Shown piece by piece: positions 896-53,078 of a DNA stretch of 56,114 bases (its first letter is position 1; each line of letters opens with the position of its first letter). The notes under the pieces are model-generated. The model saw nothing but the letters and a program-made list of their open reading frames with translations. It was not told the origin of the DNA and did no database searches. This DNA comes from Rhodohalobacter halophilus (GTDB lineage: Bacteria; Bacteroidota; Rhodothermia; Balneolales; Balneolaceae), in contig NZ_MDWE01000045.1 of the NCBI RefSeq assembly GCF_001715195.1, positions 1-56,114 on the forward strand, read 5' to 3'. Both the position numbers and the translations under genes were made by a program.

Positions 896-932
896 TAAAA
901 AAAGCCTGCGAGGAATTGTCTCACAGGCTTTC
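896..932 (-). terminator. Rho-independent terminator after dps
   Basis: The stem AAAGCCTG(T)GAG pairs with CTCGCAGGCTTT around a short loop. It is followed on the minus strand by TTTTTTTAG and lies 29 nt past the dps stop codon. Confidence 0.8.
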
Positions 933-960
933 TTATATGAATCATAAATTATCAAACAAC

Positions 961-1461
961 CTATTCCAGATGACTTCGCAGCATCCAGGCTGTTTTTGAG
1001 TGGGTATTCAACCGCTGTGTCAGCAGGTCTATTGTGGCTTCATCTTCACCTTTTTGTGCAGGTTTTAAAGCTTCACGAGCGGTTCGTAACACTTGTTCGT
1101 TGCCAACAACCAAACGCCGAACCATTTCCATAGCATCGGGCTGATCTGCATCTTCTTCAATGGATGTCAGCTCACGGTATTCTTTAAATGTTCCGGGAGC
1201 TCTGAAACCAAGTGCCCGAATTCTTTCTGCTATTACATCTACTGCTTCGGCCAATTCAGAATACTGCTCTTCAAACTGCTCATGCAGTGAATGAAAAAAT
1301 TTACCGGTAACATTCCAGTGATAGTTGTGTGTTTTCAAATACAACACATAACTATCGGCCAAAACTCTGGACAGTTCATTTGCAATCGCTCCCCGGTTCA
1401 CGGTACTTATTCCAATATTTACTTCCTCTTTTACTCTTTCTTCAGTGGTTATCATATTCAA
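961..1461 (-). CDS. dps: Dps-family ferritin-like DNA-protection protein
   Basis: A mini-ferritin of 166 aa, a normal Dps length. Members form 12-mers that oxidise Fe(II) with H2O2 and store the iron, protecting DNA from Fenton damage. The ferroxidase residues have the classical spacing: H48, H60, D75 and E79 (12, 15 and 4 residues apart, as in E. coli Dps). They sit in THNYHWNVTG, FHSLHEQFEEQY and DVIAERI. A possible alternative start is M3. It is monocistronic, with its own terminator and a promoter carrying two Crp/Fnr-type palindromes (1505-1571), which suggests stress-induced transcription shared with the redox cluster at 4-11 kb. Confidence 0.95.
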   Translation of the reverse strand: MNMITTEERVKEEVNIGISTVNRGAIANELSRVLADSYVLYLKTHNYHWNVTGKFFHSLHEQFEEQYSELAEAVDVIAERIRALGFRAPGTFKEYRELTSIEEDADQPDAMEMVRRLVVGNEQVLRTAREALKPAQKGEDEATIDLLTQRLNTHSKTAWMLRSHLE

Positions 1462-1504
1462 TCTCCGTTGTTTTAATAGTTCCTATAGTTTTCGTTTTTC
1501 TACT

Positions 1505-1571
1505 TCAATCTATAAAAACAGTCATTATTTGCCATTGACATTTGTTAAGGAAACGTCTTGATTTTTCTCAA
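1505..1571 (-). promoter_or_regulatory. dps promoter with tandem Crp/Fnr-type boxes
   Basis: Seen directly: distal palindrome TTGATTTTTCTCAA at 1558-1571 (perfect TTGA-N6-TCAA), proximal imperfect copy TTGACATTTGTTAA at 1535-1548 (23 bp apart), and on the minus strand TAGATTGA at 1505-1512, matching the start of the Bacteroidota -7 element TAnnTTTG. Exactly 22 nt separate the proximal box from TA. If TA is the -7 element, the proximal box centres near -41.5 (class II activation) and the distal near -64.5. The same geometry occurs at 5608-5674 and 8496-8562. Confidence 0.65.
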
Positions 1572-1623
1572 GGTTGATGTAATTTTTCCCTCATTTTCAG
1601 ATCAGTATTACAATCCATTCAAT

Positions 1624-2034
1624 TTACAATTGATATTCTCCCGCCATTTCGGGCTGATAAATAATTTTCATAATTTTCATTTTTGTTAAACCTGCCGGTA
1701 CAAACCATTCGATTTCATCACCAACTCTATAACCAATCAACGCGGTTGCAATCGGTGAAAATATTGAAATTTTATTCTTAGCTGAATCAGCTTCATCCGG
1801 ATACACAATCTGAATTTCGGTCTCTTTATTCTGATTCATAAACTTGAGCTTTACAATCGAATTCATTGTCACTATGTCGGGTGGAATTTCATAGGATTCA
1901 ACAAGCAGTGCCGAATTAATTTCATTAAGTATACCATCGGCATCATTTTGAAAAACTGTTCTCTTATCCAGTGCTGAATTAAGGGCTTTCGTTATTCTTG
2001 TGTGATCAAGTTTTGTTAAAAGTATAGGATTCAT
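1624..2034 (-). CDS. Rnk-like GreA/GreB-fold RNA polymerase-interacting protein
   Basis: The chosen start at 2034 (MNPILLTKLDHTR) gives 136 aa, the length of E. coli Rnk. A longer frame to 2148 adds 38 residues that overlap the neighbouring gene and have no Rnk counterpart. The C-terminal FKBP-like domain of the Gre family is clear: DIVTMNSIVKL, then IVYPDEAD, then SIFSPIATALIGYRVGDEIEW and YQPEMAGEYQL near the C-terminus. Rnk binds in the RNA polymerase secondary channel without stimulating cleavage. The gene name Regulator of Nucleoside diphosphate Kinase is historical. Its role here is unknown. A true GreA is encoded at 11905. Confidence 0.8.
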   Translation of the reverse strand: MNPILLTKLDHTRITKALNSALDKRTVFQNDADGILNEINSALLVESYEIPPDIVTMNSIVKLKFMNQNKETEIQIVYPDEADSAKNKISIFSPIATALIGYRVGDEIEWFVPAGLTKMKIMKIIYQPEMAGEYQL

Positions 2035-2113
2035 GGCTATAAGTATGTTTAATATTAATTTTTGGTTTAAAGCTTTTGGATCAAAGGAATGTTGTTTTTT
2101 CAATCCCACAGAT

Positions 2114-2509
2114 TTAATTGTATAAAGAGATTCGGTAAAAATTCTCATCTGCTTTTAGATCATTCCAAGTGATTTCAATGAATTCAGAAGGAAATACTTC
2201 AGTACCTACACAAGCTTGAATAACTAATGTTTCTTTAGCAGAAATTTTATAGTGATTCTCTTTCATTAAAATTCCCGGATAGTTGTCTACTTGAATTCCG
2301 TCTAAAATAATATTGACATTATTTGCATCAGCTTGTCCGGTATTTCTGATTTTGATTAAACCTGAATCAAAAATCAGATGAATTCTTATCCTTGCAAATT
2401 GAAATTGCTTGTTGCCATTATTTTGATCTTTTAATTTGTGGAGTTGATTTTTTATGGACTTGAGACTCAATGTCTTAAATCCAGCCTTAGATGTATTTTT
2501 TAATTTCAT
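2114..2509 (-). CDS. Hypothetical protein, possible beta-sandwich domain
   Basis: The frame has starts at 2548 (144 aa) and 2509 (131 aa, MKLKNTSKAGFK). The second is preferred because the extra 13 residues look like non-coding translation. The first 45 residues are basic and hydrophilic. From about residue 45 a run of alternating hydrophobic strands begins (RIHLIFDSGLIKIRNTGQ, NNVNIILDGIQV, HYKISAKETLVIQ, FIEITWNDL). The pattern IKIRNTGQADANNVNIILDG resembles CARDB/Ig-like adhesion modules. No signal peptide is seen. It lies 79 nt upstream of the rnk-like gene in the same direction. Function is not recognised, and whether it is expressed is uncertain. Confidence 0.45.
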   Translation of the reverse strand: MKLKNTSKAGFKTLSLKSIKNQLHKLKDQNNGNKQFQFARIRIHLIFDSGLIKIRNTGQADANNVNIILDGIQVDNYPGILMKENHYKISAKETLVIQACVGTEVFPSEFIEITWNDLKADENFYRISLYN

Positions 2510-2676
2510 CGCTGGAGTCAAGGTCCGAGCACGTAATAGAATTAACATGATTGTTCAGAATAGTGTATTCATAATCATTAGTCCTTTATTTAATTTCGTA
2601 AACAGTGTGAGATATATTCATTTTTTCAGATTCAATACATGAATACTTCAAAAAGATTTCTATTATTTGTCATTAA

Positions 2677-2714
2677 TTAAAAGTAATCCATCCCAAATCA
2701 ATGAGATGGATTAC
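2677..2714 (-). terminator. Rho-independent terminator downstream of the lysine-rich ORF
   Basis: The perfect 10-bp stem GTAATCCATC/GATGGATTAC (2683-2692 and 2705-2714) is followed on the minus strand by TTTTAATT. It ends transcription coming from 2765-3200 and so supports that segment being, or having been, a transcribed gene. Confidence 0.7.
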
Positions 2715-2764
2715 AATTGTATTATCACTTTTCAGTGATTAGCCTCTAACATGTTCATCTAATT

Positions 2765-2938
2765 TTAAGCGGCATTCTCTTTCCTAGACTTTTTCCACTT
2801 TTTCTTAACTGGAGAGTCTTCTACAGCTTTCTTCTTCTTTTTTTGTTTTTTCTTTGGTGGTTTGTTTGGGTTTTTATCTCCCAAGTGAATAACCTCATCA
2901 GTACTCTTCTCATTTATATGTATACAAGCCAAATTCAT
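2765..2938 (-). CDS. Small lysine-rich protein, probably the 3' remnant of a degraded gene
   Basis: The frame starting at ATG 2938 encodes 57 aa: a short neutral N-terminus (ending in STDEVIHLGDKNP) and a strongly basic tail with two clusters (PPKKKQKKKKK and KKKWKKSRK). Basic tails of this sort bind nucleic acid or act as disordered anchors. The same frame stays protein-like upstream of the ATG for 35 codons with no start codon. It then runs through TAA and TAG stops five codons apart to an upstream ATG at about 3108. This suggests a once longer gene (about 2765-3108) that has been broken. No family is recognised. Confidence 0.35.
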   Translation of the reverse strand: MNLACIHINEKSTDEVIHLGDKNPNKPPKKKQKKKKKAVEDSPVKKKWKKSRKENAA

Positions 2939-3587
2939 TGAGCTGGTAAAACCAATAAGTGTTTCTTGGCAAATTATCTTACTATTTATTTTACATTTTA
3001 AGTTCGAAGTGTTTTCAAATTGAAAACTGTGGATGCTGAGTTTGAATTATTCAGCACATTTCTAATTTTTAAACTGCTGTACAGAGCTTTTAAACTGATT
3101 AACCTCCATAAGATTTGCACTTCTACTTTCAGAAATGGCAAATAAAAGGAATCAGTATTGTGGAAAAGCTGGTATTGAATATGAATGGAACTGATATTCA
3201 CTTCAAATTATCAGCAAAAATTAGTGCATAATATCCTTTCCAACTGATAAGCAGGAACCGTACCCAATTAGATTTGTTTACCGGGTACGGTAAAAATGAG
3301 GTAGGTTACAATCTCTCCGAGAAATCTTTTTATCATACCTATCCCATATCTAATATTTAATTTCTTAAACGAGATGAGATTGGTGATCAATAGTATGAAA
3401 CAACCAATCAGAATTGATATTTGAACCCTGGAAAGTTCCATTTTTTTACAAAAAAATTGCTTCAGATGAGTTTCTCTTATCCAATCATATCCCTATTTAT
3501 ATTAAAGAGCAAGTATATCTGGAAAGATTATATTGTTCATCAGACACAAATATGTAAATAAGATTAAAATATTGAGAGGTAAACATC
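2939..3587. other. Gene-poor gap with degenerate coding traces and one hairpin
   Basis: 2939 to about 3110 carries the broken upstream part of the lysine-rich frame on the minus strand. A 67-codon overlapping frame (2998-3201) is equally plausible as coding debris. At 3257-3291 a 9-bp inverted repeat (ACCGTACCC/GGGTACGGT) is followed by AAAAAT. The rest, 3292-3587, is AT-rich and should contain the promoter of the gene at 3588. No other gene is seen. Confidence 0.4.
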
Positions 3588-3887
3588 ATGTACACAGACC
3601 TTGCAGATGCGGTTGAATCACTTAAGGAACAGGGCTATACTCATGTTTTTGGGTTAGAAGAAGATTGTATTAAATGCAATTCATTAGAAACAGAATTTAA
3701 CCCTGATGAACTGACAATCGTCGAGTCTCATTTTTTTGACCAGGGAACAGATCCGGGAAGTGAATCTAGCGTACATGCCATCACAACTGAATCAGGAGTT
3801 AAAGGATTGTTGATCGTTTCCTACGGCATGTATGTGGATCGGGCAAAGGCAGCCATCATCGACCAGCTTATAAAAAATTCGGAATAG
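3588..3887 (+). CDS. Small conserved protein of unknown function
   Basis: This 99-aa cytoplasmic protein resembles a small Bacteroidota family often labelled phosphoribosylpyrophosphate synthetase in databases. That name cannot be right: the protein is a third of the size and has no PRPP-binding loop. The shared pattern as I recall it is an N-terminal helix (DLADAVESLKEQGYTHVFGL), a pair of cysteines (C27 and C30 in EDCIKCN), then GTDPGSESSVHAITTESGVKGLLIVSYGMYVD. A purine-rich AGAGG lies about 9 nt upstream of the ATG. It is monocistronic. The family assignment is from memory and the function is unknown. Confidence 0.7.
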   Translation: MYTDLADAVESLKEQGYTHVFGLEEDCIKCNSLETEFNPDELTIVESHFFDQGTDPGSESSVHAITTESGVKGLLIVSYGMYVDRAKAAIIDQLIKNSE

Positions 3888-3915
3888 AAAAGCCCGTGAG
3901 ATTATCACAGGCTTA
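3887..3915 (-). terminator. Hairpin between convergent genes
   Basis: AAGCC-c-GTGA pairs with TCAC-a-GGCTT (3890-3914). On the minus strand it is followed by TTTTCT, so it can end transcription of the GMC gene, and it lies directly behind the stop of the plus-strand gene. Confidence 0.6.
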
Positions 3916-3934
3916 ACTTCATGGTTTTAGAAAT

Positions 3935-5553
3935 CTATCCCTCTTTCACGAGATCAGCTCCTTTTTCACCGATCATTAGAACAGCAGCATTGATATTTCC
4001 GGATGGTATGGTTGGCATCACCGAAGCATCAATCACCCGAAGGTTATTTATGCCACGAACACGCAACTGTGGATCAACCACGGCCAAATCATCTTTGCCT
4101 ATACGGGCTGTTCCGCTGTAATGGAAGCCTGTGTTCCCATTTGTCCGTATATAATCAAGCAACCCTTCATCACTATTTCCGGCAGGCCCTGGTTCAATCT
4201 CTTCAACCATTAATTCCTGCGGCATCGCATCCGCAATTCGCTTGGCAATTTTCATGCCCTCTAAGATGGTGCGGACATCTTCCTCTTCACTTAGATGGTT
4301 AAAAAGAATTGAGGGACTTGCTTTTGGATCCGAAGAAGTAATTCGCACTCTGCCACGACTTTCCGGTCGGTTTTGGTACATTCCCAACCGGAATCCCGAG
4401 AATTTTGCAAGATCCCAGCCTTTGTCTCCTGGCATAAATGGAAGAAAGTGAAGGTGCAGGGCTGGGGCTTCCACATCCGGCCGGGTTTTTACATACGCGC
4501 CGGCAAGGGATGCGCCAATCGTTAGCGGCCCGTTACGCGGGCCGAGATAATAATTGATCCGGGCCAACATTTGCTGAAACATGGTTCCCACTTGTTTGTT
4601 TAAGGTGTATTTACTGGATGTTGTGTATTTGCGGTCTACCTGCATGTGATCAATCAGGTTTTCACCAACACCCTTTAGTTCGTGCACTATCTCTATTCCA
4701 TTCTCCTTTAAAAGATCTGCAGGACCGATACCTGATAACTGAGCAGCTGCGGTGTTTGAAGAGCACCTGCACTCAAAATCACCTCACGTTTTGCTTGTGC
4801 ATGATACAGTTCGCCATCACGTTCATAGCTGACACCTACAGCCGTTTTTCCTTCAAAATCAACCTTTGTGACATACGCTTCCGTAAGAATTGTGAAATTT
4901 GGATGCTTGCGATTTGGTTTGATATATCCAGCTGATGTGGATGAACGGCGTCCTTTCCAGGTTGCTAAATCCCAGTAGCCAGCTCCTTCAATGTTGGGGC
5001 GATTAAAGTCGTTATTCCTGGGAATATTCAGAGTGGTTACGGCTGTATCAATATACGCATCTGCCAATGGATTCTTCCATCGTGCAAGTTCCACTCCAAT
5101 CGGGCCGTCACCTCCGTGATATTCATCTTCACCGCGATGATCACGTTCACTTTTTTTAAAATAGGGCAGTACATCGCGATAACCCCATCCATCTGCACCT
5201 TCTTTTTCCCAAGTATTGTAGTCGAATGATGATCCGCGAACATGCACGAGTCCGTTAATTGCACTAGATCCACCAAGCAGTTTTCCATGTGGTAACGGAT
5301 ACGTATTATTCTTTAAACCGGGTTCGTTTTCTGTTTGATGGTTCCACCGCATATACTTTTCGTTGAAAAGTATCTTGGCAAAACCCAGCGGAATTTTGGA
5401 CCAGTAACTGTTATCCTCCGGACCGGCTTCAAGCAATAAAACTTCTTTGTCAGGGTCTTCTGAAAGCCGGGCAGCAACAATTGCACCGGCCGATCCGGCG
5501 CCTACAATGATATAATCATATAACCTTGCTATTTTTTGATCGGGATTTTTCAT
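3935..5553 (-). pseudogene. GMC-family FAD oxidoreductase, broken by a 1-nt frameshift
   Basis: The two frames together make one protein of about 540 aa, the normal GMC (choline/glucose dehydrogenase) length. The N-terminal part (5553 down to 4708) has the Rossmann motif GAGSAGAIVAARL (18-30), E42 for FAD ribose binding and the GMC signature GGSSAINGLVHVRG. The C-terminal part (to 3935) has the catalytic His of GFHYSGTARIG and the closing SGNINAAVLMIGEKGAD. Between them the expected LQTPQLL-QLSGIGPADLL is interrupted: one base is missing at about 4742, so the first frame runs on to a spurious YQVSVLQIF and stops. The site is not a homopolymer. Translation would yield a truncated, inactive protein unless this is a sequence error. 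Its promoter carries tandem Crp/Fnr boxes. Confidence 0.9.
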
Positions 5554-5575
5554 TTTCCATAATCTACCTCTTCAC

Positions 5576-5611
5576 TTAATGTTAAATATTTATGCAATTA
5601 TTTAACATTAA
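5576..5611. promoter_or_regulatory. Inverted repeat overlapping the GMC promoter, candidate repressor operator
   Basis: The 13-bp arms TTAATGTTAAATA (5576-5588) and TATTTAACATTAA (5599-5611) are perfect complements with a 10-nt spacer. They lie between the start codon and the -7 element and overlap it. The dioxygenase promoter has a related 20-bp palindrome at the corresponding place (10856-10875). Confidence 0.5.
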
Positions 5612-5674
5612 ACTAAGAAGAGTGGCCGCTATTCTCCTTGACATCTGCTAAGAAAAACTCTTGATATATCTCAA
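5608..5674 (-). promoter_or_regulatory. GMC promoter with tandem Crp/Fnr-type boxes
   Basis: Distal perfect box TTGATATATCTCAA (5661-5674), proximal box TTGACATCTGCTAA (5638-5651) 23 bp away, and minus-strand TAGTTTAA (5608-5615) as the -7 element with exactly 22 nt between the proximal box and TA. This is the same geometry as the dps and F420-type reductase promoters. Confidence 0.65.
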
Positions 5675-5703
5675 TAAAAAACCTGAAGTTTCTAGTTTCA
5701 GGC
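5675..5703 (-). terminator. Rho-independent terminator after pirin
   Basis: The stem CCTGAA/TTCAGG (5682-5702) is followed on the minus strand by TTTTTTATTG. It closes the reductase-NmrA-VOC-pirin operon immediately before the GMC promoter boxes. Confidence 0.75.
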
Positions 5704-5732
5704 TTTTTCCATTCGTTTATGAGAATCAATTA

Positions 5733-6473
5733 TTACTTCGCAAATAACCCATTACGGCTGAAAGGTGCATTTTCATCCAGTACAAAAAAGACCAGGTCGG
5801 AATCTTCCCTGCTGATTAGATCCAATTGCTCATCTTTGATTACGACTGAATCTCCCTTTTTAACAATTTCGTCACTGTTTTCAATTTTGATATTTCCGCT
5901 GAATACATATAAAAGACCGGTTTTGCCGTTTAGGTTTGGCGATTGCAGGGAGTTTTCTTTTTCAAGCCGCACATCATAAAAGAGTACTTCACTTCTGAAT
6001 TTCATCGGGGCCTCCGAGCGTTCAGAGCCGGCAAGCAATCGCCATTGGTTCAGGCTATAGGTTTGGTCCGGTTCGTGAAACTGAATCATGGGTTTCAAGC
6101 CGTCTGCTTGGGGGCGGATGAAAATTTACAGCATTTCCACGGTTTCACCGCCTTCGCGAACTCCTTCTTCGTGGTATATTCCACTTCCGGCATTCATCAG
6201 CATGAAGTACTTGTTGTGGATACCCAGATCATTTTCATCACTGTCTTTGTGAAGCATGGTTCCTTTCCGCAAGTACGATAAAATCTCCTCGTTTTGATGC
6301 ATATGCATCGGCACCAGGGCACCGGCTTCAAGTGTGGCATGTTCCAGCCGTCCGATCTGGGCAAGACCGTGGTCGTTCCATTCGGGAAGCAATCGGCCTA
6401 AGGGTAAAAATCGTGATGTAAAAGGCCCGCGGCTTACTTTTCTGCGCGTATTCGCCTTGGAGATATGAATCAT
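5733..6473 (-). pseudogene. Pirin-family protein interrupted by an in-frame TAA
   Basis: One continuous frame of 246 sense codons reads as a complete two-cupin pirin except for a TAA at 6126-6128 (codon 116). Metal ligands of the N-terminal cupin are intact: H57, H59, H101 and E103 (MHMHQNEE and SGIYHEE). Right after VEML, pirins have LQIW/LQIF. Here the frame reads VEML-stop-IFIRPQADGLKPMIQF, so a single C-to-T change turning CAA (Gln) into TAA explains the break. Some pirins are quercetin dioxygenases and others regulate redox enzymes. The ATG overlaps the stop of the VOC gene as ATGA, so the two are translationally coupled. As it stands only the N-terminal cupin would be made. Confidence 0.9.
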
Positions 6474-6970
6474 TTTTCATCCTCCAATTCCTGCAGCAAT
6501 CCTTCCAGATCCAGCGGCTCGGTAACCATCTTTACGGAACCATCGACGGTATATTCCCATTCTTGTCTGGGTCGATCACGGTAAAGTTCTACTCCATTGC
6601 CATCCGGATCGTTAAGATAAATGGCTTCCGAAACTCCGTGGTCACTGGCACCGCTGATAGGGTAGCCCTCATCGATTAATCGCTTTAGAATGATGGCCAG
6701 ATCTTTCCGAGTGGGATACAAAAAAGCAGTGTGATATAAACCGGCACTATTTCGCGGTCAGGGCCGACCTCCTTTACTGTGCCAGGTATTCAAACCAATA
6801 TGATGGTGATAACCGCCTGCCGATAGAAATGCAGCCTGATCGCCGTACATGGTAGTCAGATCAAATCCCAGTAGGTCGCGATAAAATTCAAGTGCACGAT
6901 TCAGGACCGATACTTTCAAATGGACGTGCCCAATCGATGTTTTTGGTGGTGCTGTATAGTTCTCATTCAT
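6470..6970 (-). pseudogene. VOC/glyoxalase-fold protein interrupted by an in-frame TGA
   Basis: A single frame of 166 sense codons encodes a vicinal-oxygen-chelate protein of the CatE/glyoxalase type. The first module has a metal-ligand candidate H15 or H17 (IGHVHLKV) and HHHIGLNTWHSKGGRP. The second has DHGVSEAIYLNDPDGNGVELYRDRP with its metal Glu. Codon 71 (6758-6760) is TGA, and the frame continues without shift as PRNSAGLYHTAFLYPTR, which is typical VOC linker sequence. A single C-to-T change from CGA would explain it. No second initiation site with a clear ribosome-binding site is seen. It sits between the NmrA gene (26-nt gap) and pirin (ATGA overlap) in one operon. Confidence 0.88.
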
Positions 6971-6996
6971 GATCTGTTTTTTTTAAAGAAAGAAAA

Positions 6997-7854
6997 TTAT
7001 GGGTTCACGAAGTTTTTGATGAATGTATCAAGTCCGGTAGGTTTGCGTCCAAGCAGCTTCTCCATATCATCAAAAGTGAAATCGAGTGCTCCGTTGACGA
7101 ATGTCTCGGCGGTCATCACACTCATGGCAATTTGATCTTCAGGTAAACCGATTTCTTGCAGAGTTTTTTCAAATTCTGAAATAGGGACATCAGTATAGGT
7201 GATTTCCTTGCCGGAAGATTCACTTAGCAAGCCAGCAATCTCATCAAGGGTGTAGGCTTTGCCTGATGTAATTTCATAGATGCTGTTTTTATGTTTTCCG
7301 GAATTTTTCAGTCCGTTTGCTAATGCTTCGCCCATTTCTGAACGCAGTGCCAGGTTGATGGCTTTGCCATCTGATGGAAAAGCCCACTGTCCGGTTTCCA
7401 TTGCATTGCCTAGGAATAGCGGCAGAAATTCCATATAAAAGGTGTTGCGGTAAATGGTATAGGGAATACCGGATTCCTGAATGAGCTTTTCAGTTTCGGC
7501 ATGATCCGGCGAAAGCGGACTCAACTCTTTATCCGCTTGAACAATGCTCGTATAAAAAATCTGCTTTACATCCGCTTTCTTTGCAGCCTCTATGACGTTT
7601 TTGTGCTGCCCTATCCGTCCTTCCAGTGAGCTGGAAGAAATTAACAACAGTGTTTCAATTCCCTGAACGGCTTTTTCAATGGATGAGTAATCGGTATAAT
7701 CACCGACCCTGATTTCCACACCTTTTTGTTTTAGTTCGGCACCTTTTTCTTCGCTTCGGACAAGTCCTGCAATTTCGGCATCGGGTTTTTTGTCTAGTAA
7801 TAAATCAATGGTTTGAGTTCCTAAATGTCCGTTGGCTCCAGTAATGAGTATCAT
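6997..7854 (-). CDS. NmrA/QorB-type NAD(P)H:quinone oxidoreductase
   Basis: A 285-aa atypical short-chain dehydrogenase of the NmrA/QorB (YtfG) group, which reduces quinones with NADPH or acts as a redox sensor. The N-terminal nucleotide-binding loop ITGANGHLGTQTIDLLL (3-19) is intact. As usual for this group the YxxxK catalytic pair of classical SDRs is absent. The motif IPYTIYRNTFYMEFLPLFLG matches the QorB substrate-side segment. It is the second gene of the operon led by the F420-type reductase. The context with a ring-cleaving dioxygenase and pirin fits quinone or electrophile detoxification. Unlike its two downstream neighbours the frame is intact. Confidence 0.85.
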   Translation of the reverse strand: MILITGANGHLGTQTIDLLLDKKPDAEIAGLVRSEEKGAELKQKGVEIRVGDYTDYSSIEKAVQGIETLLLISSSSLEGRIGQHKNVIEAAKKADVKQIFYTSIVQADKELSPLSPDHAETEKLIQESGIPYTIYRNTFYMEFLPLFLGNAMETGQWAFPSDGKAINLALRSEMGEALANGLKNSGKHKNSIYEITSGKAYTLDEIAGLLSESSGKEITYTDVPISEFEKTLQEIGLPEDQIAMSVMTAETFVNGALDFTFDDMEKLLGRKPTGLDTFIKNFVNP

Positions 7855-7944: not shown

Positions 7945-8460
7945 TTAATATGTGCCGGTTCTAGTTGGTTTAAGAGTCTGAGAGACCTTGAAACCGGCTG
8001 TTTTCAAAAGCTCTGAGATATTATGCAGGGCATCCTGATCATCACCGGAAATAATAACCCGTGGCATTAACCCTTGTTTTAATACCGTCACGATTTTGGA
8101 ATAGGGAAGACGACTTTGTAATCTGTCGGATACGATTGGGCTATCTTCGTCAACATTGCCGTCAATATGCATTACGATTTTTTGAATAGCTACATTGTGT
8201 ATTTTTTCAGCAATCTCCTTTTCATTGGCCTTTGGGATATCCAGAATAATGATGTCAGCTTCCCAGCTACATTCATATGCACAGTCCATGATCTTTACTT
8301 CTGCTTTCGGGTGCTCCGTATAGATCGTCTCTGCTAAAGAGTCTAATTTCGTACCAAATAGCAGCAGTCGATAATTTCCTGATATAATTCCCTTTGCAAG
8401 AGCAGAACCCAAATCTCCTCCGGCACCTATAATTGCAATCGTTTGTTTAGTAATAGGCAT
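7945..8460 (-). CDS. NADPH-dependent F420-reductase-like (NADP oxidoreductase) protein
   Basis: A 171-aa Rossmann protein of the F420-dependent NADP oxidoreductase family. The dinucleotide-binding motif IAIIGAGGDLGSALAKGI lies at residues 8-25, and the second conserved stretch WEADIIILDIPKANEKEIAEKI follows at about 69-90. Bacterial relatives use NADP and rarely F420. The protein is some 40 residues shorter than the relatives I remember and ends abruptly (LKPTRTGTY), so the C-terminus may have been lost. It is first in the operon with NmrA, VOC and pirin, behind a promoter with tandem Crp/Fnr boxes and directly after the crp/fnr gene. Confidence 0.7.
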   Translation of the reverse strand: MPITKQTIAIIGAGGDLGSALAKGIISGNYRLLLFGTKLDSLAETIYTEHPKAEVKIMDCAYECSWEADIIILDIPKANEKEIAEKIHNVAIQKIVMHIDGNVDEDSPIVSDRLQSRLPYSKIVTVLKQGLMPRVIISGDDQDALHNISELLKTAGFKVSQTLKPTRTGTY

Positions 8461-8586: not shown

Positions 8587-9162
8587 TCAACCACTGAAAT
8601 TTCCGCGTACCCAGCTCAGTGTTTCAGGGCTCATCCCCAAATAAGAAGCCACTAAATTTAATGGCACCCGGTTCATGAATTCTGGATTTTGTTTAATCAG
8701 GCGGGCATATTTCTCTTCTGCGGTGAGTCCCAATGCATTTTCCACACGCTGCTGAAGAGCTGCATATGCATTCTGAAGTATAACCCGGTGATAGCGTTCG
8801 TAGGAGGGGATTTCTTTCAGAAGCTTTTCATGATTTTCCCTGTCGAGCATAAGAAGTTCACTGTCTTCCAAAATCTCAATATTTAACCGGGTTGGTTTTG
8901 CTGTAAAGAAACTATGCAGGTTTGCCAACCACCAACCGGTGAATGCAAAACGAATGACATGTTTGTTACCTGATGAATCCACGGTGTATGAATAAAGAGA
9001 ACCTTTCTCAACAAAAGCCAACTCTCTGCAAACATCTCCCTCTTGCAGTAGAAATTGCCGTTTGAGCATCCTTTTTGGGCGGAAATTGTTTTTGCACATT
9101 TCCCACTCCTCATCCGTCAGAGAAACGATTTCGTTGATGCTGCTTCGGAGCTGCTCATACAT
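8587..9162 (-). CDS. Crp/Fnr-family transcriptional regulator
   Basis: A 191-aa protein with an N-terminal cyclic-nucleotide-binding-like beta barrel (about 20-115, including RQFLLQEGDVCRELAFVEKGSLYSY), a dimerisation helix (about 117-150) and a short C-terminal helix-turn-helix (NLVASYLGMSPETLSWVRG). It has only two cysteines, so it is not an Fe-S FNR. The barrel lacks an obvious cAMP-binding signature. The recognition helix keeps the E180 and S183 used by FNR to read TTGA, but the usual following Arg is W184 (TGG, one C-to-T step from CGG). It is the natural candidate to bind the TTGA-N6-TCAA boxes at 1.5, 5.6, 8.5 and 10.9 kb. Its effector is unknown. Confidence 0.85.
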   Translation of the reverse strand: MYEQLRSSINEIVSLTDEEWEMCKNNFRPKRMLKRQFLLQEGDVCRELAFVEKGSLYSYTVDSSGNKHVIRFAFTGWWLANLHSFFTAKPTRLNIEILEDSELLMLDRENHEKLLKEIPSYERYHRVILQNAYAALQQRVENALGLTAEEKYARLIKQNPEFMNRVPLNLVASYLGMSPETLSWVRGNFSG

Positions 9163-9308: not shown

Positions 9309-9812
9309 TTACGAAGTAGAGTTCAGTAGGGTTATAGTTGAGAAATTGGCATGATGCATAAGCTCACGCAGGAAAAGCAAACCTGCGGCGAATTCTCGAT
9401 TTTCCGGAATTCCGAGTAACTTAGCAGGTGTGCCGTATGCTACATCAGCAAGGCAATTAAAAAGACGCTCAACATCATCAACTTTAAAGTTTGATACATC
9501 CTTATCTGATGCAATTCCGGCAATTTTTTGGAACAATAGTTCGGATGTGACCAGAGTACGGTGAGCCGGCAATGACGGGATTACCGGCTCCAATTCATCT
9601 TCGATGCTTGCTATGGCAGCTTCAAGTTCAATCGCAGTTGCAGGTTCACTCTGTATATGATGTTTTATGTGCTGCATGGATCCCACTTTTAGATCCATAT
9701 TGTTTGATTTTTTGATCACCCTGAGCATGATGTCATCATCTTTTAAAAAGAGAACGGAAAGAGGGCCGTCATTTAGGAGAGGTTGAATGATATGTTTTGA
9801 GAGGCTATCCAT
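9309..9812 (-). CDS. Conserved-looking protein of unknown function
   Basis: The start at ATG 9812 (MDSLSKHIIQPLL, 167 aa) is preferred over TTG 9851, which lies inside a GC-rich hairpin. The protein is soluble and mixed alpha/beta, with a first half of hydrophobic strands (PLSVLFLKDDDIMLRVIKK), an acidic stretch (ELEAAIASIEDELEP) and a helical C-terminal half (FKVDDVERLFNCLADVAYGTPAKLLGIPENREFAAGLLFLRELMHH). No signal peptide, no recognised motif. It lies between the dioxygenase and the crp/fnr gene on the same strand and may belong to the same stress cluster. Confidence 0.55.
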   Translation of the reverse strand: MDSLSKHIIQPLLNDGPLSVLFLKDDDIMLRVIKKSNNMDLKVGSMQHIKHHIQSEPATAIELEAAIASIEDELEPVIPSLPAHRTLVTSELLFQKIAGIASDKDVSNFKVDDVERLFNCLADVAYGTPAKLLGIPENREFAAGLLFLRELMHHANFSTITLLNSTS

Positions 9813-9842
9813 TTTGTAGTGCAACAACTTAAATATTGAGTA

Positions 9843-9872
9843 ACCCCCCAAAGATTCTAAAATTTTGGGGGT
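9843..9872 (-). terminator. GC-rich hairpin after the dioxygenase gene
   Basis: CCCCCAAA (9845-9852) pairs with TTTGGGGG (9864-9871). There is no real U-tract on either strand, so it is a weak terminator or an RNA-stability element just past the dioxygenase stop codon. Confidence 0.45.
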
Positions 9873-9897: not shown

Positions 9898-10830
9898 TTA
9901 AACCCGAATTTCAGGCAATCGCTTTTCGATCTTTTCCCGCTTTGATTCCAACCAAGGGGGAAGGATTAGTTTCTGCCCAAGTTTATCGGGTTCTTCATCC
10001 ACATCATAGCCCGGTCCGTCCGTAGCAATTTCGAACAAGACACCGCCCGGAGACCGAAAATAGACCGAGTGGAACCAGTGCCGGTCGATGACATCTGAGG
10101 GATGAAGTCCCATATCGATGATTTTTTGGCGCAGCTCTTTTAGTTCGTCATCATCAGAAGCCCGAAAGGCAACATGGTGAACGATGCCTCGTCCGTTTGA
10201 CGATGGTTTGTGTTCTCCTTCTTCGATAATGACTGAACCGCCGATTGGGGCATCCGTTGTGTAATGCCATCGATTCTCTTCCCGGGCGGTTTCCTCAAAT
10301 CCAAACAGGTTTGTTAACACTTGTGCTGTTGATTCATGTTCACTCAAAAGGAGTGTAGTTCCGCGAAATCCCCGGATGCCATACTCGGCAGGCACAGATC
10401 CTTTTTCCCAACCGGGCAGTGAATCAACCTGTTCATCAAATACAAGCTCAAGCCCCATCAGGTCCGGATCTTTGAACCCGATCGCCTGTTGACCGAAACG
10501 GTCATACGGCCCGTCAAAATCGATTCCCTCTTCGCCAAAATGCTCAGCCCAATAATCAATTGAGCCGGATGGAACGGCTAAGGCTACCGTTACAGCTTCA
10601 CCCAAACCGGGTTTACCCTGAATGGCCATCTGCCAGGGAAAAAAGGTTAGACCGGATCCCGGTGAGCCATTCGCATTTCCATAAAAGAGGTGATAGGTGC
10701 CGGGATCATCCTGATTGACGGATTTTTTAACAAGCCGCATTCCCAGCTTTTTAACATAGAATTCAGCATTCCGCTGGGCATCGCCGGAAATTGCTGTAAT
10801 GTGGTGGATTCCTTTTTTGTTGGTTTTCAT
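9898..10830 (-). CDS. Ring-cleaving dioxygenase, MhqO/glyoxalase-type
   Basis: A 310-aa VOC-superfamily extradiol dioxygenase of the MhqA/MhqO (hydroquinone-specific) group. Two VOC modules are visible: the first opens with GIHHITAISGDAQRNAEFYVKKLGMRLVKKSVNQDD (8-43), the second with EYGIRGFRGTTLLL. Iron-ligand candidates are the His of GIHHIT, the His of RGIVHHVAFRA and the Glu of GVLFEIATDGPGYDVDEEP. Homologues in Bacillus and Bacteroidota detoxify hydroquinones and quinone-like electrophiles, often next to the quinone reductases and pirins found here. It is transcribed alone from a promoter with a single perfect Crp/Fnr-type box and a palindrome over the -7 element. Confidence 0.88.
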   Translation of the reverse strand: MKTNKKGIHHITAISGDAQRNAEFYVKKLGMRLVKKSVNQDDPGTYHLFYGNANGSPGSGLTFFPWQMAIQGKPGLGEAVTVALAVPSGSIDYWAEHFGEEGIDFDGPYDRFGQQAIGFKDPDLMGLELVFDEQVDSLPGWEKGSVPAEYGIRGFRGTTLLLSEHESTAQVLTNLFGFEETAREENRWHYTTDAPIGGSVIIEEGEHKPSSNGRGIVHHVAFRASDDDELKELRQKIIDMGLHPSDVIDRHWFHSVYFRSPGGVLFEIATDGPGYDVDEEPDKLGQKLILPPWLESKREKIEKRLPEIRV

Positions 10831-10855
10831 AATTTAAAGATTTAATACTGTCTGT

Positions 10856-10875
10856 TTAGTTTAATATTAAACTAA
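10856..10875. promoter_or_regulatory. Perfect 20-bp palindrome over the dioxygenase -7 element
   Basis: TTAGTTTAAT and ATTAAACTAA are directly adjacent perfect complements. The element covers the presumed -7 box, a position suited to repression. The GMC promoter shares the half ATTAAACTAA inside its own inverted repeat. Confidence 0.5.
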
Positions 10876-10910
10876 TTACACTTGCGCTGGGTTCCATTGA
10901 CATTTATCAA
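10867..10910 (-). promoter_or_regulatory. Dioxygenase promoter with one Crp/Fnr-type box
   Basis: The perfect box TTGACATTTATCAA (10897-10910) lies exactly 22 nt upstream of minus-strand TAGTTTAA (10867-10874), the same distance as the proximal box at the three tandem promoters. No second palindrome is found 23 bp upstream. Confidence 0.6.
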
Positions 10911-10930
10911 TTTCATGAAACGTCTTCTAA

Positions 10931-11203
10931 AATATGGTGAGTTCGATTTTAGAATCTTGAAAACGATTCTCACTTCTAAGTGTTAAGGATGGACCTTTTC
11001 TATGCTTTTGCATTTATATTATATCGCTCTCTCGAAAAAATAAAAAAAGCAGATAAACTGGAAGGGATGCCTACTGTAGAATGTGTTGTATGATAGGAGA
11101 TATTAGTTTTAGATCATTCGTCAATTTGATCGAGGTAACAATTTGAACGTGGATCTTCTTTTTAAAATCCAGTAGGGCTTGTTAGAATAAGAATATATCA
11201 AAC
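10931..11203. other. Intergenic gap without a recognisable gene
   Basis: AT-rich sequence upstream of the dioxygenase promoter and downstream of the GIY-YIG gene. Neither strand has a convincing frame and no strong hairpin is seen. Confidence 0.4.
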
Positions 11204-11641
11204 TTATTTCTTCTTAGATCGCTTTTGATCATTAAATTCTGGAAGCCTTCCAAAATGATCCAGGTACATTGCAATGCTCACATACTCCTCTTTCAGACAT
11301 TCCCCTTTCTGTTTCCAGTTAAAAACATGGTCATTCTCGGTTAACGGAAAGGAATTTACACAGATGTAAACCCTGCTGAAGAAATCCCGTACCTCTGTGT
11401 GTTTAAATCTAACGCGTTCAGCACCACCATGGACACCATTTATTCCTTCCATTGCTTTTTTGAATTGGTACAGTCTTCCGAGTACTCCCTTTTTGGATAT
11501 AGAAACCCCTACATAAATGATCTCTTCGATGAAACGAAATGGTTGCCCCGAAATATCTTGATCAGACAGTGCAATGTAGTAAACCCCTGGTTGTTTAATT
11601 TGAGGTATTGTTCTTCTGCTTTTCCACTTTGTCCACTTCAT
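11204..11641 (-). CDS. GIY-YIG-fold nuclease-like protein
   Basis: This 145-aa protein carries the GIY-YIG core in degenerate form: GVYYIAL for the GIY strand, then IIYVGVS for YIG (Tyr kept, Ile to Val), a following Arg in GVLGRLYQFKKA, and a later Glu (KEEYVSIAMYLDHFGRLPEFN) that would hold the metal. No extra DNA-binding domain is attached except a basic tail (RSKKK). Stand-alone members include phage, homing and repair-type nucleases, and many are uncharacterised. The catalytic residues appear present, so nuclease activity is possible but not shown. It stands alone on the minus strand, with AT-rich flanks on both sides. Confidence 0.6.
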   Translation of the reverse strand: MKWTKWKSRRTIPQIKQPGVYYIALSDQDISGQPFRFIEEIIYVGVSISKKGVLGRLYQFKKAMEGINGVHGGAERVRFKHTEVRDFFSRVYICVNSFPLTENDHVFNWKQKGECLKEEYVSIAMYLDHFGRLPEFNDQKRSKKK

Positions 11642-11904
11642 GAATTACTAATTAACAGTGATTAAAATTATACGAAAGCATGCAAGAACAATAAAAAATT
11701 GATCAATCTAAAAAAATGATGCAACGATTTATTGGGAATATCCTTGAGCTGGCATCAGTCACAGTACAAATTGCCGTTGGGAAAACAGTGCGGAACATCC
11801 TATTTTTACATGTCTAAATAATTACCGAAAAAATTGTTCGATGGATAGCAGTAGAAATACTGCTATTTCTGTTTTAACTAAGTTAAACCGATGTAAATGT
11901 AAGT

Positions 11905-21659: not shown

Positions 21660-21796
21660 ATTCTCCCTCTTGAGGGGAGTACTCCGACAGTTTTTGTCGG
21701 AGGGAGGGGTGTTTGGAAACAAGGAAGTCACATTAAACGCACCCCTTGTCTGCCGCTGAACGCTTGCAGACCTGTCCTCTCAGAAGAGGGGATTTT
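21660..21796. repeat. Nested palindromic repeat inserted between sufB and sufC
   Basis: Outer arms TCTCCCTCTTGAGGGGAG and CCTCTCAGAAGAGGGGA are near-complements. Inside are a perfect stem CTCCGACA/TGTCGGAG (21682-21702), a longer pairing GGGGTGTTT/AAACGCACCCC and a small CTGC...GCAG stem. The sequence has the look of the dispersed non-coding palindromes found in many Bacteroidota genomes. In the transcript it would fold strongly between the two suf cistrons. Confidence 0.7.
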
Positions 21797-21833
21797 AACA
21801 TTTTAAAATCAAACAAAACAAAATCATACAACT

Positions 21834-22607
21834 GTGTTAGAATTAAAAGATTTACATGTTGAAGTTGAGGGTGAAGGGATTGAAATCCTGAAGGGAGTAA
21901 ACCTCAAAGTGAAAAAAGGAGAAATTCACGCCATTATGGGGCCTAACGGAAGCGGTAAGAGTACCCTTTCCAAAGTAGTGGCCGGCCACCCGGAGTACGA
22001 AGTAACCAAAGGTGACATTCTTTTTGAAGGTGAAAGCATTTTGGAACTCGATCCGGATGAAAGAGCGCACAAAGGTGTATTCCTCGCGTTTCAATACCCG
22101 GTGGAAGTTCCCGGTGTAACCAACAACACGCTGCTGCGAGAGTCGTATAACACTATTGCAGCATCCATGGGGCGGGAAGAGTTAGACCCTCTTGAGTTTG
22201 AAGATTACATCAAAGACAAACTGGATTTGGTTCAGATGGATCCCGAGTTTTTGAACAGAAGTGTAAATACCGGTTTCTCAGGCGGCGAGAAGAAACGAAA
22301 TGAAATTTTCCAGATGGCGGTACTTCAGCCAAAGCTGTCACTTCTTGACGAAACAGACTCCGGCCTAGATATCGATGCATTGAAAATTGTATCCAACGGA
22401 ATTAACCAGCTGCATGGAGAGGATGACGCTGTAGTTCTGATTACTCACTATCAGCGCTTGCTTAACTACATCACCCCGGATTATGTGCATGTGATGATGG
22501 GCGGTAAGATTGTAAAAAGTGGTGAGAAAGAGCTGGCCCTTGAGCTTGAGGAGAAAGGCTACGATTGGCTGGAAGATCTTGCAACCGTAAACGGAGAGGC
22601 GAAGTAA
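21834..22607 (+). CDS. sufC: Fe-S assembly ATPase SufC
   Basis: A 257-aa ABC-type ATPase that energises SufB and SufD. Walker [10 protein letters not shown], the Q-loop ([15 protein letters not shown]), signature [11 protein letters not shown] and Walker [17 protein letters not shown] (the SufC form with DETDSGLD) are all intact. The start codon is GTG at 21834. The stop codon overlaps the sufD ATG (TAATG). It has no membrane domain, as expected. Confidence 0.96.
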
Positions 22608-30258: not shown

Positions 30259-30942
30259 ATGAAAAAAACAGGAATCGTGATCATTGTACTCAGTCTGTTT
30301 GTAATTACCTCACAAGCACAAAATATGCAGGGACAACATTCCATGATGAGCAGTCCGGGAATTCAGCAAATCGTTGTTATGTATGGCGATCAGCTGGATA
30401 TAACAGATGATCAGCTATCTGAAATTATAGCAAAGCAGCTTGAATATCGTGAAACGATGCGCAATGCCCGCATGCAGTCAAATCGAGCAAACCGTGGTCA
30501 GCAAGAGCAGCAGGGTGAAAATTACCGGGCACAGCACAGTCAATCCATTCTGCGTTCAGTTTTAACTGAGAGTCAGATGGGTAAACTGAATGAACTGATG
30601 AAAGATCGCGCAAATTTCTCACACCGTTATACAACTATTCGTCACAAGGAGATCGTGGACAGAAGCGGATTAGAAGGTGAAAAGAGAGATGCAGTACTGG
30701 AGATGATGAATCGACATGCGGAACAGAGGAAAGAGCTTCAACTTCAAAGAATTGAAAATCCTCAATCAATGAGCGCCGATGATCGCCGTCAGATGATGAA
30801 CACAATGCGTGATGATATGCAGGAACTCCGTTCAATCTTAACAGTGGAGGAATACGAAAATTTAATGCAATTTATGGGGCGAGGGCAGGATCGGCCAAAC
30901 AGTCGCATGAACCAAAGACCGAATAACCGTCGCCAGAACTGA
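30259..30942 (+). CDS. Periplasmic Spy/CpxP-like protein
   Basis: A 227-aa secreted protein with a signal peptide (hydrophobic 5-17, cut after SQAQ) and a long, almost fully helical body rich in Gln, Met, Arg and Glu. Repeated LTxxQ-like segments (DITDDQLSEI, LTESQMGKLNEL, LTVEEYENLMQ) are the hallmark of the Spy/CpxP/ZraP family of envelope chaperones and sensors. The tail (RPNSRMNQRPNNRRQN) is low-complexity. It lies 35 nt upstream of an ECF sigma-factor gene, suggesting an envelope-stress module. Confidence 0.75.
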   Translation: MKKTGIVIIVLSLFVITSQAQNMQGQHSMMSSPGIQQIVVMYGDQLDITDDQLSEIIAKQLEYRETMRNARMQSNRANRGQQEQQGENYRAQHSQSILRSVLTESQMGKLNELMKDRANFSHRYTTIRHKEIVDRSGLEGEKRDAVLEMMNRHAEQRKELQLQRIENPQSMSADDRRQMMNTMRDDMQELRSILTVEEYENLMQFMGRGQDRPNSRMNQRPNNRRQN

Positions 30943-30977
30943 TAAGTTAAAATAAGCCTCAGCACGGTGTAGAATTG

Positions 30978-31493
30978 ATGGGCATTACAGATGATTTTAA
31001 AAAAGAGTTACCCAGGCTCTATCCAAGGCTCCATCGTGCAATGAGTGCTTATTTGGCGGGAAGTGATCTTGATCCTGAAGACATTACACAGGAGGCATTT
31101 CTGAAAGCGTATCGATCGGTCGGCAAGTTTAAAGGAGAATCGGGATTTTACACCTGGATATACTCCATCGCCAGAAATCTTTGTATTGATCATTTCAGAA
31201 AGCAGAAAAATGAACCCGATAAAAGCTCGATACCGGTTGATGAGTTTGAAATTGAATCAGATGAGTTTAAATCGGCAGATAAACGTGAAGAGATACTGCT
31301 GCTTCGGAAGGCGATTGCTCAACTTCCGGAACTGTTACGAACAGTGGTAATTATGAAAACCGTGGATGGACTTACCTATCCGGAAATTTCCGAAATACTG
31401 GATGTAAATGAACAGACAATTAAAAACAGAATGTTCCGTGCACGTAAAGAGCTGGCAGGTATATTGAAAAAAATGGGAGTGGATCAGATATGA
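30978..31493 (+). CDS. ECF RNA polymerase sigma factor
   Basis: ATG 30978 gives 171 aa; a TTG one codon earlier is less likely. Region 2 runs from about 20 to 85 with DPEDITQEAFLKAYRSVGKFKGESGFYTWIYSIARNLCIDHFRK, and region 4 (about 115-165) has LPELLRTVVIMKTVDGLTYPEISEILDVNEQTIKNRMFRARKEL. Group by layout: SigE/SigW-like ECF. The next gene overlaps it by ATGA and encodes a single-pass protein, its likely anti-sigma factor. Confidence 0.95.
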   Translation: MGITDDFKKELPRLYPRLHRAMSAYLAGSDLDPEDITQEAFLKAYRSVGKFKGESGFYTWIYSIARNLCIDHFRKQKNEPDKSSIPVDEFEIESDEFKSADKREEILLLRKAIAQLPELLRTVVIMKTVDGLTYPEISEILDVNEQTIKNRMFRARKELAGILKKMGVDQI

Positions 31494-31957
31494 AACTGTA
31501 TGACATGAATGAACAAAACGAGCGGAAAAAGCTGGAACTGATGATCAACCGGGCTGCTGACGGTGAGCTCACTGAGCAGGAGATATCAACTCTTAATCAA
31601 CAGCTTCAGGGGTATCCCGACCTGTTGGAGAATTATCATGACATTCTCGCCTTACCGGATCTGAAGAGCGCGTATGACAGGATTAATATTCACCCTTCCG
31701 ATTATCAGACAAAAATCGATCGACTCATCAGCCGAATGGAAGAGGATGGTCTGAAGAACTTTGCGGAGGCATCCATTTTCTGGTTCAAACGTTATGCGTT
31801 TGCAGCTTCTGTTGCTGCGTTAGCCCTTGTATCGGGGTTCTATTTAATAACGGACAATACAGGTGATAATGAAATGGCTGTGGAGCAGCTACTCTATCCC
31901 GACGATGGGGGCGATGCCGAAACCTATGTACTCTATCTCAACGAATATTTTGATTGA
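31490..31957 (+). CDS. Putative anti-sigma factor
   Basis: A 155-aa protein. The N-terminal half is cytoplasmic and acidic (NRAADGELTEQEISTLNQQLQ, the short helical segment often seen in anti-sigma domains). One transmembrane helix lies at about 104-120 (RYAFAASVAALALVSGFYL), and a 30-residue acidic periplasmic tail follows. There is no zinc motif (HxxxCxxC), so it is not a canonical ZAS. Overlap with the sigma gene (ATGA) makes an anti-sigma role the best inference. Confidence 0.75.
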   Translation: MKLYDMNEQNERKKLELMINRAADGELTEQEISTLNQQLQGYPDLLENYHDILALPDLKSAYDRINIHPSDYQTKIDRLISRMEEDGLKNFAEASIFWFKRYAFAASVAALALVSGFYLITDNTGDNEMAVEQLLYPDDGGDAETYVLYLNEYFD

Positions 31958-31959
31958 TT

Positions 31960-32436
31960 ATGCTCATGAATACTAAAACAAAAGTTATACTCTCATTTAT
32001 TACAGTGTTTTTGCTGGGCGGCATTTCCGGCTATCTGGTTCGGGATACACTTTTAGTAAAGGAACAGTATGCCCATAGCGAAAGGTTTTCCGGGAATGAA
32101 GACAGGAACGGCACTCGGTTCGAGAATGAACAGGAGAGGCGAGAACATCGACAACGGATGCGGGAACGCGCACAAAATCGCCTTATTGAATATCTAAGTC
32201 TCGAGGAGAATCAACAGGAGGAGTTTTTCTCACTTTTGCACACCTACCACACCGATATTCGAGACTCGGTTCGAACCATTCGTGATCTTGAGGATTCATT
32301 TATTCGAGAACATTATGATGAGTTCAAAATAGATCTGTCTGACCTTCTAAATCAGCAGCAACTGAATAGAATGGATCGATTTTTTCATCCCGATTCAGTC
32401 CGGTATAACAGAGCAAACAGAGATCACAGAAATTAA
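31960..32436 (+). CDS. Membrane-anchored Spy/CnrX-like sensor protein
   Basis: ATG 31960 is chosen over a TTG two codons before; MNTKTK at 31966 is another option. It has an N-terminal signal anchor (KVILSFITVFLLGGISGYLV) without a clear cleavage site. A helical periplasmic domain follows, rich in Arg and Glu, with segments YLSLEENQQEEFFSLLHTYHTDI and DLSDLLNQQQLNRMDRFF (Spy/CnrX family pattern). Several His (H in YAHSE, LHTY, YHTD, EHYDEF) could bind metal. In the CnrYXH system a CnrX-type protein controls the anti-sigma factor, and the same layout is seen here. Confidence 0.7.
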   Translation: MLMNTKTKVILSFITVFLLGGISGYLVRDTLLVKEQYAHSERFSGNEDRNGTRFENEQERREHRQRMRERAQNRLIEYLSLEENQQEEFFSLLHTYHTDIRDSVRTIRDLEDSFIREHYDEFKIDLSDLLNQQQLNRMDRFFHPDSVRYNRANRDHRN

Positions 32437-38453: not shown

Positions 38454-39989
38454 ATGTCGGACAGTCAAACCGATAAGAATCGTCACATCGACCTGGATTC
38501 TCTACATTCGAAAACAGTTAAGGATCTGAAGGAAATTGCCAAATCGATCGGAATTCGTGGTGTATCTGCACTTAAAAAGCAGGCCATTATTGATCGAATC
38601 CGAAAAGAGGTCTCTACCGGAAGTAACCGGCCGGCCCAAAAACAGGATCAGGCAAAATCTGAACAGCCAGTGCAAAGTGCCTCATATGGAAGTAAGGCAC
38701 ATATTCAGACCTATGATCAGGATGCAAATAAAGGGCGATCAAAAAGAGATAATCAGCAGCATGGTGGCCGAAGAAAGAAAAAACCTCAGAACAAAAAGCA
38801 TGTAAGCAATGTGCTGCCCGAATCGGATGCACCGACTCTTCAGGAGCGGCTCGATGAAATTACCCCACAGCTGGGTAAATTTTTGTTGAATGAGGGAACT
38901 CTTGAAATTTTGCCTGACGGATATGGTTTTTTACGATCAGTCAACTACAACTATAAGGCGAGTCCAGACGATATTTATGTATCTCCCTCTCAAATTAAGC
39001 GTTTTCGCCTGAAACAGGGGGATTGTGTGATTGGAATAATTCGTCCTCCTAAGGTGGGAGAGCGCTATTTTGCTCTTTTACGGGTTGAGGGAGTGAATGG
39101 AAAAATTCCAACGGATATGGATAATCGCGGTGATTTTGAGGATCTGCTGCCGGTCTATCCTGATATGAGATTTAAACTTGAGAACAACCCGTCGGAATAC
39201 ACAACACGACTGATTGATCTTTTTGCCCCTATTGGTAAAGGCCAGCGTGGTTTGATTGTAGCCCAGCCTAAAACGGGTAAGACTACCATTTTGAGAAATA
39301 TTGCCAATGCGGTTAACCGAAATCATCCCGACACCAAAGTCATTATTCTTCTGGTAGATGAACGTCCCGAAGAGGTGACAGAGATGGAGCGCACCGTAGA
39401 AAACGCGGAAGTTGTTGCTTCCACGTTTGATGAGAAGCCGGAAAATCACGTCGGGCTTTCTGAGATTGTGTTTGAAAAAGCAAAACGTCTTGTGGAAAGC
39501 GGTCAGGATGTACTTCTTCTGATGGACTCCATCACCCGCCTTGGACGCGCTTACAACGTTGCTACAGGCAACTCCGGACGAACCATGACAGGTGGTATTG
39601 ATTCGGAAGCATTGAAGGCGCCTCGTCAGCTTTTCAGCTCTGCACGAAATATTGAGGGAGGCGGAAGCCTCACTATTATCGCTACTGCATTGGTTGACAC
39701 CGGATCGAGGATGGACGATGTGATTTTTGAGGAGTTTAAAGGAACCGGTAACATGGAGCTGGTATTGGATCGCCGGCTTGCCGAACGCAGAATTTTTCCT
39801 GCAATTGATATTTTTAAGAGTGGTACACGGCGAGAAGAGCTCATTGTACCGGATGAGGAGAGAGAAAAAGTTGTACTGCTTCGCCGCTATCTGAATAACC
39901 ACAACGCTTTTGAGGCGATGGAATTCCTTCTCGACAAGATGAAGGGAACCCGAAGCAATGAAGAATTCCTTATTTCTATGAACAAATAG
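38454..39989 (+). CDS. rho: Transcription termination factor Rho
   Basis: A 511-aa hexameric RNA helicase. After a SAP-like N-terminal helix pair ([22 protein letters not shown]) comes a disordered, Lys/Gln/Arg-rich insertion (about residues 50-125: [31 protein letters not shown]), which lengthens it by about 90 aa over E. coli Rho, as usual in Bacteroidota. The cold-shock RNA-binding domain ([16 protein letters not shown]) and ATPase domain follow, with P-loop [13 protein letters not shown] (K276) and Walker [17 protein letters not shown]. Two frames of shadow ORFs on the other strand are not genes. Confidence 0.97.
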
Positions 39990-53066: not shown

Positions 53067-53078
53067 TTTGTTTTAAAA

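Follow-up and report, generated by a model that had tools for sequence, protein, structure and literature searches.

Single lesions in three neighbouring genes suggest recent decay of a putative Crp/Fnr-type regulon in Rhodohalobacter halophilus

Results

The window analysed here is the whole 56,114-nt contig NZ_MDWE01000045.1 (C40) of Rhodohalobacter halophilus, whose draft genome comprises 3.12 Mb in 92 contigs and is 97.8% complete. On its minus strand lies a cluster of genes in the order 310-aa VOC-type protein, 180-aa protein, Crp/Fnr-type regulator, NAD(P)-binding protein with an F420_oxidored domain (NAD), NmrA-like protein, VOC (glyoxalase/dioxygenase-type) protein, pirin and GMC oxidoreductase (Table 1). 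VOC, pirin and GMC are direct neighbours, and each carries a single lesion in a frame that is otherwise open.

Table 1 Genes, lesions and FNR-like boxes of the cluster (window coordinates)
Feature	Position	Strand	Remarks
GMC oxidoreductase gene	3935..5553	-	frameshift of one base between about 4735 and 4741; Pfam and intact homologue
FNR-like box TTGATATATCTCAA	5661..5674	.	108 nt upstream of GMC; in G074 the identical sequence lies 90 nt before GMC
Pirin gene	5733..6473	-	in-frame TAA at 6126-6128 (codon 116); Pfam and relatives
VOC (glyoxalase/dioxygenase-type) gene	6470..6970	-	in-frame TGA at 6758-6760
NmrA-like gene	6997..7854	-	intact; Pfam
NAD(P)-binding protein gene (NAD)	7945..8460	-	open; heads run NAD-NmrA-VOC-pirin
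FNR-like box TTGATATATGTCAA	8549..8562	.	89 nt upstream of NAD
Crp/Fnr-type regulator gene	8587..9162	-	Trp184 codon 8611-8613; Arg in relatives
180-aa gene	9309-9851	-	without Pfam match
310-aa VOC-type gene	9898..10830	-	intact; probable further target; family hits weak
Box with one mismatch	10897..10910	.	67 nt upstream of 310-aa VOC-type gene

The pieces of all three broken genes retain their family domains. Glyoxalase (PF00903) scores above the Pfam cut-off on either side of the VOC stop, which places the gene in the VOC superfamily. In pirin, PF02678 (Pirin, 45.5 bits, cut-off 26.1) precedes the stop and PF17954 (Pirin_C_2, 27.9 bits, cut-off 22.9) follows it, so that both pirin-family domains are present. 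GMC_oxred_N and GMC_oxred_C both exceed their Pfam cut-offs in two frames, and the GMC gene is one base short of the intact 543-aa copy in the related genome G074, with the frame change near 4738. Direct reading of the coordinates, together with these matches, confirms what an earlier note on this DNA had claimed, namely three adjacent minus-strand genes with one lesion each. The VOC and pirin genes share 4 nt; the VOC stop may also affect the overlapping pirin by polarity, in which case the two losses would be one event.

The same note had stated that genes outside 3.9-7 kb show no such lesions. We compared 308 open reading frames (ORFs; at least 80 aa) from 22 loci of relatives with the whole window, of which 118 gave hits. 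In the 44,008 bases covered outside 3900-7000 we found no comparable lesion (hits above 45% identity), and for these bases the statement holds; the uncovered stretches longer than 300 nt are 1-963, 2035-3900, 10831-11901, 30940-31965, 39987-40293 and 52421-53194. Flagged stops near 14722 and 54530 are gene boundaries, and another in 21767-21937 belongs to a spurious antisense ORF. Over the checked bases, the chance that three random lesions fall within at most 2.1 kb is P about 0.006.

A shared FNR-like box, found at corresponding places in relatives, suggests a putative Crp/Fnr-type regulon that includes the broken genes. A scan for TTGAYATATRTCAA with at most one mismatch found 24 sites in 38 sequences (537,579 bases) and none for the reversed control; the sequences were chosen for holding cluster genes, and the density of sites is not a genome average. 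The sites precede NAD (10), YceI-like genes (8), 310-aa VOC-type genes (2), GMC (2) and other genes (2). Their distance to the listed start is 67-93 nt in 19 of the 24, or in 22 when the NAD ATG used in the pN/pS comparison is taken; the exceptions lie at 108 nt (the window GMC) and 171 nt (a gene of Gracilimonas amylolytica LA399, G048). The box is thus a conserved palindrome at a near-fixed distance upstream of its targets, as in an FNR-like regulon. Of the 23 regulator loci scanned together with flanking sequence, 20 hold it, against none for the control (loci without it: G075, G003 and G044:C2), and these loci partly overlap with the 24-site scan. The exact pattern TTGATATANNTCAA occurs three times in the whole genome of R. 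halophilus, two of them in the cluster (5661 and 8549). Judged from box position and recognition helix, the regulator probably reads TTGAYATATRTCAA boxes. No description of this box or regulon was found for the regulator group in the open-licence literature.

The regulator has the N-terminal cNMP-binding-type domain of Crp/Fnr proteins (PF00027, 44.4 bits, cut-off 27.5), and no Pfam helix-turn-helix model matches it at E up to 0.01. Among the 22 regulators compared at residue 184, a count that excludes that of G069 (residue not covered), 21 have Arg, including the second copy encoded on contig C15 of the same genome, and the window copy is the only one with Trp. The same 21 have the helix-turn-helix reading residues E-x-x-S-R; in the window copy R is replaced by W and the protein still aligns through the helix, so that the reading residue alone fails. 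FNR structures match weakly (E 0.003-0.007) and place ETLSWVRGNF of the window regulator opposite ETISRLLGRF, where Trp184 aligns with the base-reading arginine of FNR. According to PMC4505428, Glu-209, Ser-212 and Arg-213 of E. coli FNR are the major contacts to the FNR box. Of the regulators compared, that of the window has changed most often at columns that are invariant in the rest (5 changes, 0-4 in the others), a result that leans towards relaxed selection. Trp184 may well weaken the regulator.

Compared with Balneola sp. EAC52 (G052, a metagenome-assembled genome), one of the relatives bearing the same cluster, the broken genes VOC and pirin have a dN/dS (omega) of 0.051 and 0.045, the regulator has 0.061, and NmrA and NAD reach 0.088 and 0.213; most dS values are near or beyond saturation, which makes omega rough, and stop and gap codons were excluded from pN/pS. 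The values for the regulator, NmrA and NAD are those of the dN/dS check that the earlier note had proposed for the intact genes around; in the broken genes pN/pS is low. Long-standing relaxed selection is not seen in pirin, whose pN to G. amylolytica is 0.137 in the window and 0.128 in G052. Changes at otherwise invariant columns, stops included, number 3 in VOC (0-3 in the others), 4 in pirin (2-11) and 7 in NmrA (4-16); this count excludes NAD. Given three lesions in 2,850 nt, the neutral age comes to roughly 0.004-0.013 substitutions per site, with 95% upper bounds of 0.011-0.033 over the assumed rates. Because the broken frames still look constrained and the estimated lesion age is low, the sequences indicate that the decay is recent.

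The earlier note had explained two of the lesions by C-to-T changes in the coding strand, like the Arg-to-Trp change of the regulator. For the regulator this fits, as codon 184, TGG in the window, is CGG in six of nine relatives. For pirin, the stop codon stands where all six aligned relatives have Gln (CAG in five, CAA in one), and the TAA is compatible with one C-to-T change, plus a second change if the ancestral codon was CAG. The VOC site is Ala in 22 of 23 relatives' copies and Ser in the genome's own second copy (Ala or Ser in 23/23), so a single C-to-T change there is not supported, nor is a single C-to-T process behind all the changes.

Copy counts were taken over 92 genomes of the family. 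Pirin at 65% identity or more occurs in eight of them, intact in G052, G048, G044 and G046, and broken by a different lesion each time in the window genome, G049, G010 and G011. The isolate genome of Gracilimonas mengyeensis DSM 21985 (G049, L054:9426-10166; Balneolaceae, Balneolota) carries its TAA in frame at codon 67, a lesion that arose independently of the window stop. The remnant in G010 (L018:5282-5621) has an internal deletion and a frame change, and that in G011 (L019:654-1061) has four stops and a deletion; an intact VOC adjoins both. Both of these have lost the codon of the window stop by deletion. Joint inheritance of that stop with G010 and G011 is disfavoured because the window pirin is free of additional decay. 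More distant pirin copies without a stop are present in G024 (48%) and G073 (41%). The window pirin and GMC are the only matches of their families in their own genome. The intact 543-aa GMC of G074 is 81% identical to that of the window, and among the 92 genomes one besides that of the window has a GMC this similar. The VOC family has 64 matches in 60 of the 92 genomes (E up to 1e-40), with an internal stop only in the window copy; the second VOC copy of the same genome, on C15, is intact.

The order regulator-NAD-NmrA-VOC-pirin is kept in five relatives from two other genera (G052, G048, G044, G049 and G046). YceI-like and DoxX-like genes, named from sequence reading, lie within the run in the last four and not in G052. 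The NAD protein measures 171 aa in the window, 174 aa in G052 and about 200-220 aa in four relatives, and its C-terminal part is divergent. In G011, VOC and the pirin remnant adjoin homologues of window 896-2063, with no GMC there; in G010, a 55-bp stretch matching window 3496-3550 at 91% comes straight after the pirin remnant. GMC is thus either a local gain in the window genome or a local loss in these two. G074 has a homologue of the 180-aa gene (49%) next to GMC; in the window, the regulator-to-pirin run separates these two genes.

A second cluster on C15 (L017, G000:C15:1-4482) contains a regulator 61% identical to that of G052, NAD, the intact VOC and a box, together with nitroreductase-like, YceI-like, DoxX-like and DsbA-like genes (NCBIfam scores below the cut-offs). 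It is an older paralogous cluster. The C15 contig ends 34 nt past the VOC stop codon. Elsewhere in the window, a tmRNA gene lies at 52700-53065 (tag peptide DNNYSYRLAA). Three plasmid records match, each over at most 31% of the query, and are not informative.

Discussion

Our results make it probable that all three lesions are genuine and represent recent loss-of-function mutations in one small Crp/Fnr-type regulon; the likeliest explanation is that a small stress-response system is undergoing ordinary gene decay of very recent date. The earlier note had proposed recent decay of a regulon or a cluster of assembly errors, and C-to-T changes for two of the lesions; the shared box, the changed regulator and the varied pirin lesions speak for the decay, and the VOC site speaks against a shared C-to-T cause. 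No literature on Balneolaceae pseudogenes was found under open licences.

We then propose a model for this decay. In the intact state, the regulator would bind TTGAYATATRTCAA boxes, mostly 67-94 nt upstream of its targets, and would control redox or electrophile-handling enzymes. In the window genome, the recognition-helix Arg has apparently been replaced by Trp, which could have relaxed selection on the targets. GMC, VOC and pirin each seem to have taken one disabling mutation, while the boxes and the rest of the frames retain signs of constraint. It is plausible that the regulator changed first. The regulon is affected only in part, as the frames of NAD, NmrA, the regulator and the 310-aa VOC-type gene remain open.

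Several observations weigh against the decay of a regulon. The four open frames just named hold about the same total of bases as the broken genes. The third exact TTGATATANNTCAA match lies inside a long ORF, and the control pattern occurs once in the genome. The regulator on C15 retains Arg and might act on these boxes as well. Between the window and G052, pirin pN is 0.127 after the stop versus 0.037 before it, which leans towards relaxed selection, though the direction is no different in other pairs, among them G052 against G. amylolytica (0.145 after versus 0.109 before). All lesions were read from draft assembly sequence alone, and from any Ala codon to the VOC stop at least two base changes are needed. 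The same distance is unlike a single miscall and argues against local consensus errors, from thin coverage or a strain mixture, in genes that are intact in the organism. Such errors would suit a draft of 92 contigs, a lesion that is a one-base frameshift and constraint that is undiminished in all three genes. They would have to cluster within one regulon, to spare the rest of the 44 kb covered and to be accompanied by a unique change in the regulator of the same cluster, and a broken pirin also occurs in an isolate and in two further genomes of the host's genus. We therefore regard assembly error as unlikely, and a generally poor assembly is disfavoured by the 44 kb without another lesion.

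Alternatively, the lesions are real and strike dispensable accessory enzymes, with Trp184 neutral or specificity-shifting and not their cause. The regulators of G010, G011 and G049 retain Arg though their pirins are broken, which also counts against our model and means that pirin loss does not require an altered regulator. The intact second VOC copy, the rarity of GMC in the family and the targets that remain open fit dispensability as well. Trp184, however, occurs in no other of the 22 regulators, aligns with the box-contacting Arg and lies in the same cluster as the lesions, and this account, whose chances overlap with those of regulon decay, seems to us less likely. Recoding, by readthrough of the VOC and pirin stops and programmed frameshifting in GMC, would explain why constraint persists 3' of the stops. 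It is most improbable and was rejected: the interruptions are of three different kinds and none is shared, the relatives having Gln (6/6) in pirin, Ala or Ser (23/23) in VOC and an intact GMC frame in G074. The stop of the G. mengyeensis pirin is at another codon, and the GMC site is outside any long homopolymer. Stops conserved across species, which the earlier note would have taken as a sign of recoding, do not occur in the relatives compared.

Regulon decay, the reading we prefer, can be set beside known systems. The box of FNR, TTGATNNNNATCAA, has the same half-sites and spacing as the window boxes, and the E-x-x-S-R spacing of the helix fits the FNR contact residues given above. According to PMC4505428, four Cys of FNR bind a [4Fe-4S] cluster, whereas the window regulator has only two Cys (23 and 45) and hence no such site; it also has Trp for the last contact residue, and its targets are not anaerobic-respiration genes. 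The closest solved relative is the cyclic nucleotide binding regulatory protein 3dn7, whose likeness is in sequence only and extends across almost the whole protein (E 7.9e-33); the entry gives no regulon. The MhqR/YodB quinone-response regulons of Bacillus and Staphylococcus likewise comprise VOC-type ring-cleaving dioxygenases and nitroreductases according to PMC6798810, whose text names no pirin. There the repressor is of the MarR family, whereas the window regulator is Crp/Fnr-type, and the operator also differs. No cluster protein passes an NCBIfam cut-off, so the substrates of the cluster enzymes are suggested by analogy with the enzyme kinds of quinone-response regulons. The 310-aa VOC-type protein may resemble MhqO. 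Ordinary recent pseudogenes share with the window single stops and frameshifts in accessory genes, repeats of pirin loss in relatives and a spare VOC; they differ in that here the lesions lie together in one regulon whose regulator is altered at a conserved residue.

It is tempting to go further, though only tentatively, and to see here an undescribed Balneolaceae Crp/Fnr-type regulon for electrophile or quinone handling, in which the Arg was lost first, the targets were then broken singly and pirin is a repeatedly expendable member.

If regulon decay is correct, the decay has an identifiable unit, namely a small regulon whose box can be recognised, whose regulator is changed at its reading residue and whose lesions are young enough for constraint to remain visible. 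It would offer a natural test of whether regulon loss begins at the regulator or at the enzymes, and the box with its targets is a concrete, testable prediction for this regulator group in the phylum.

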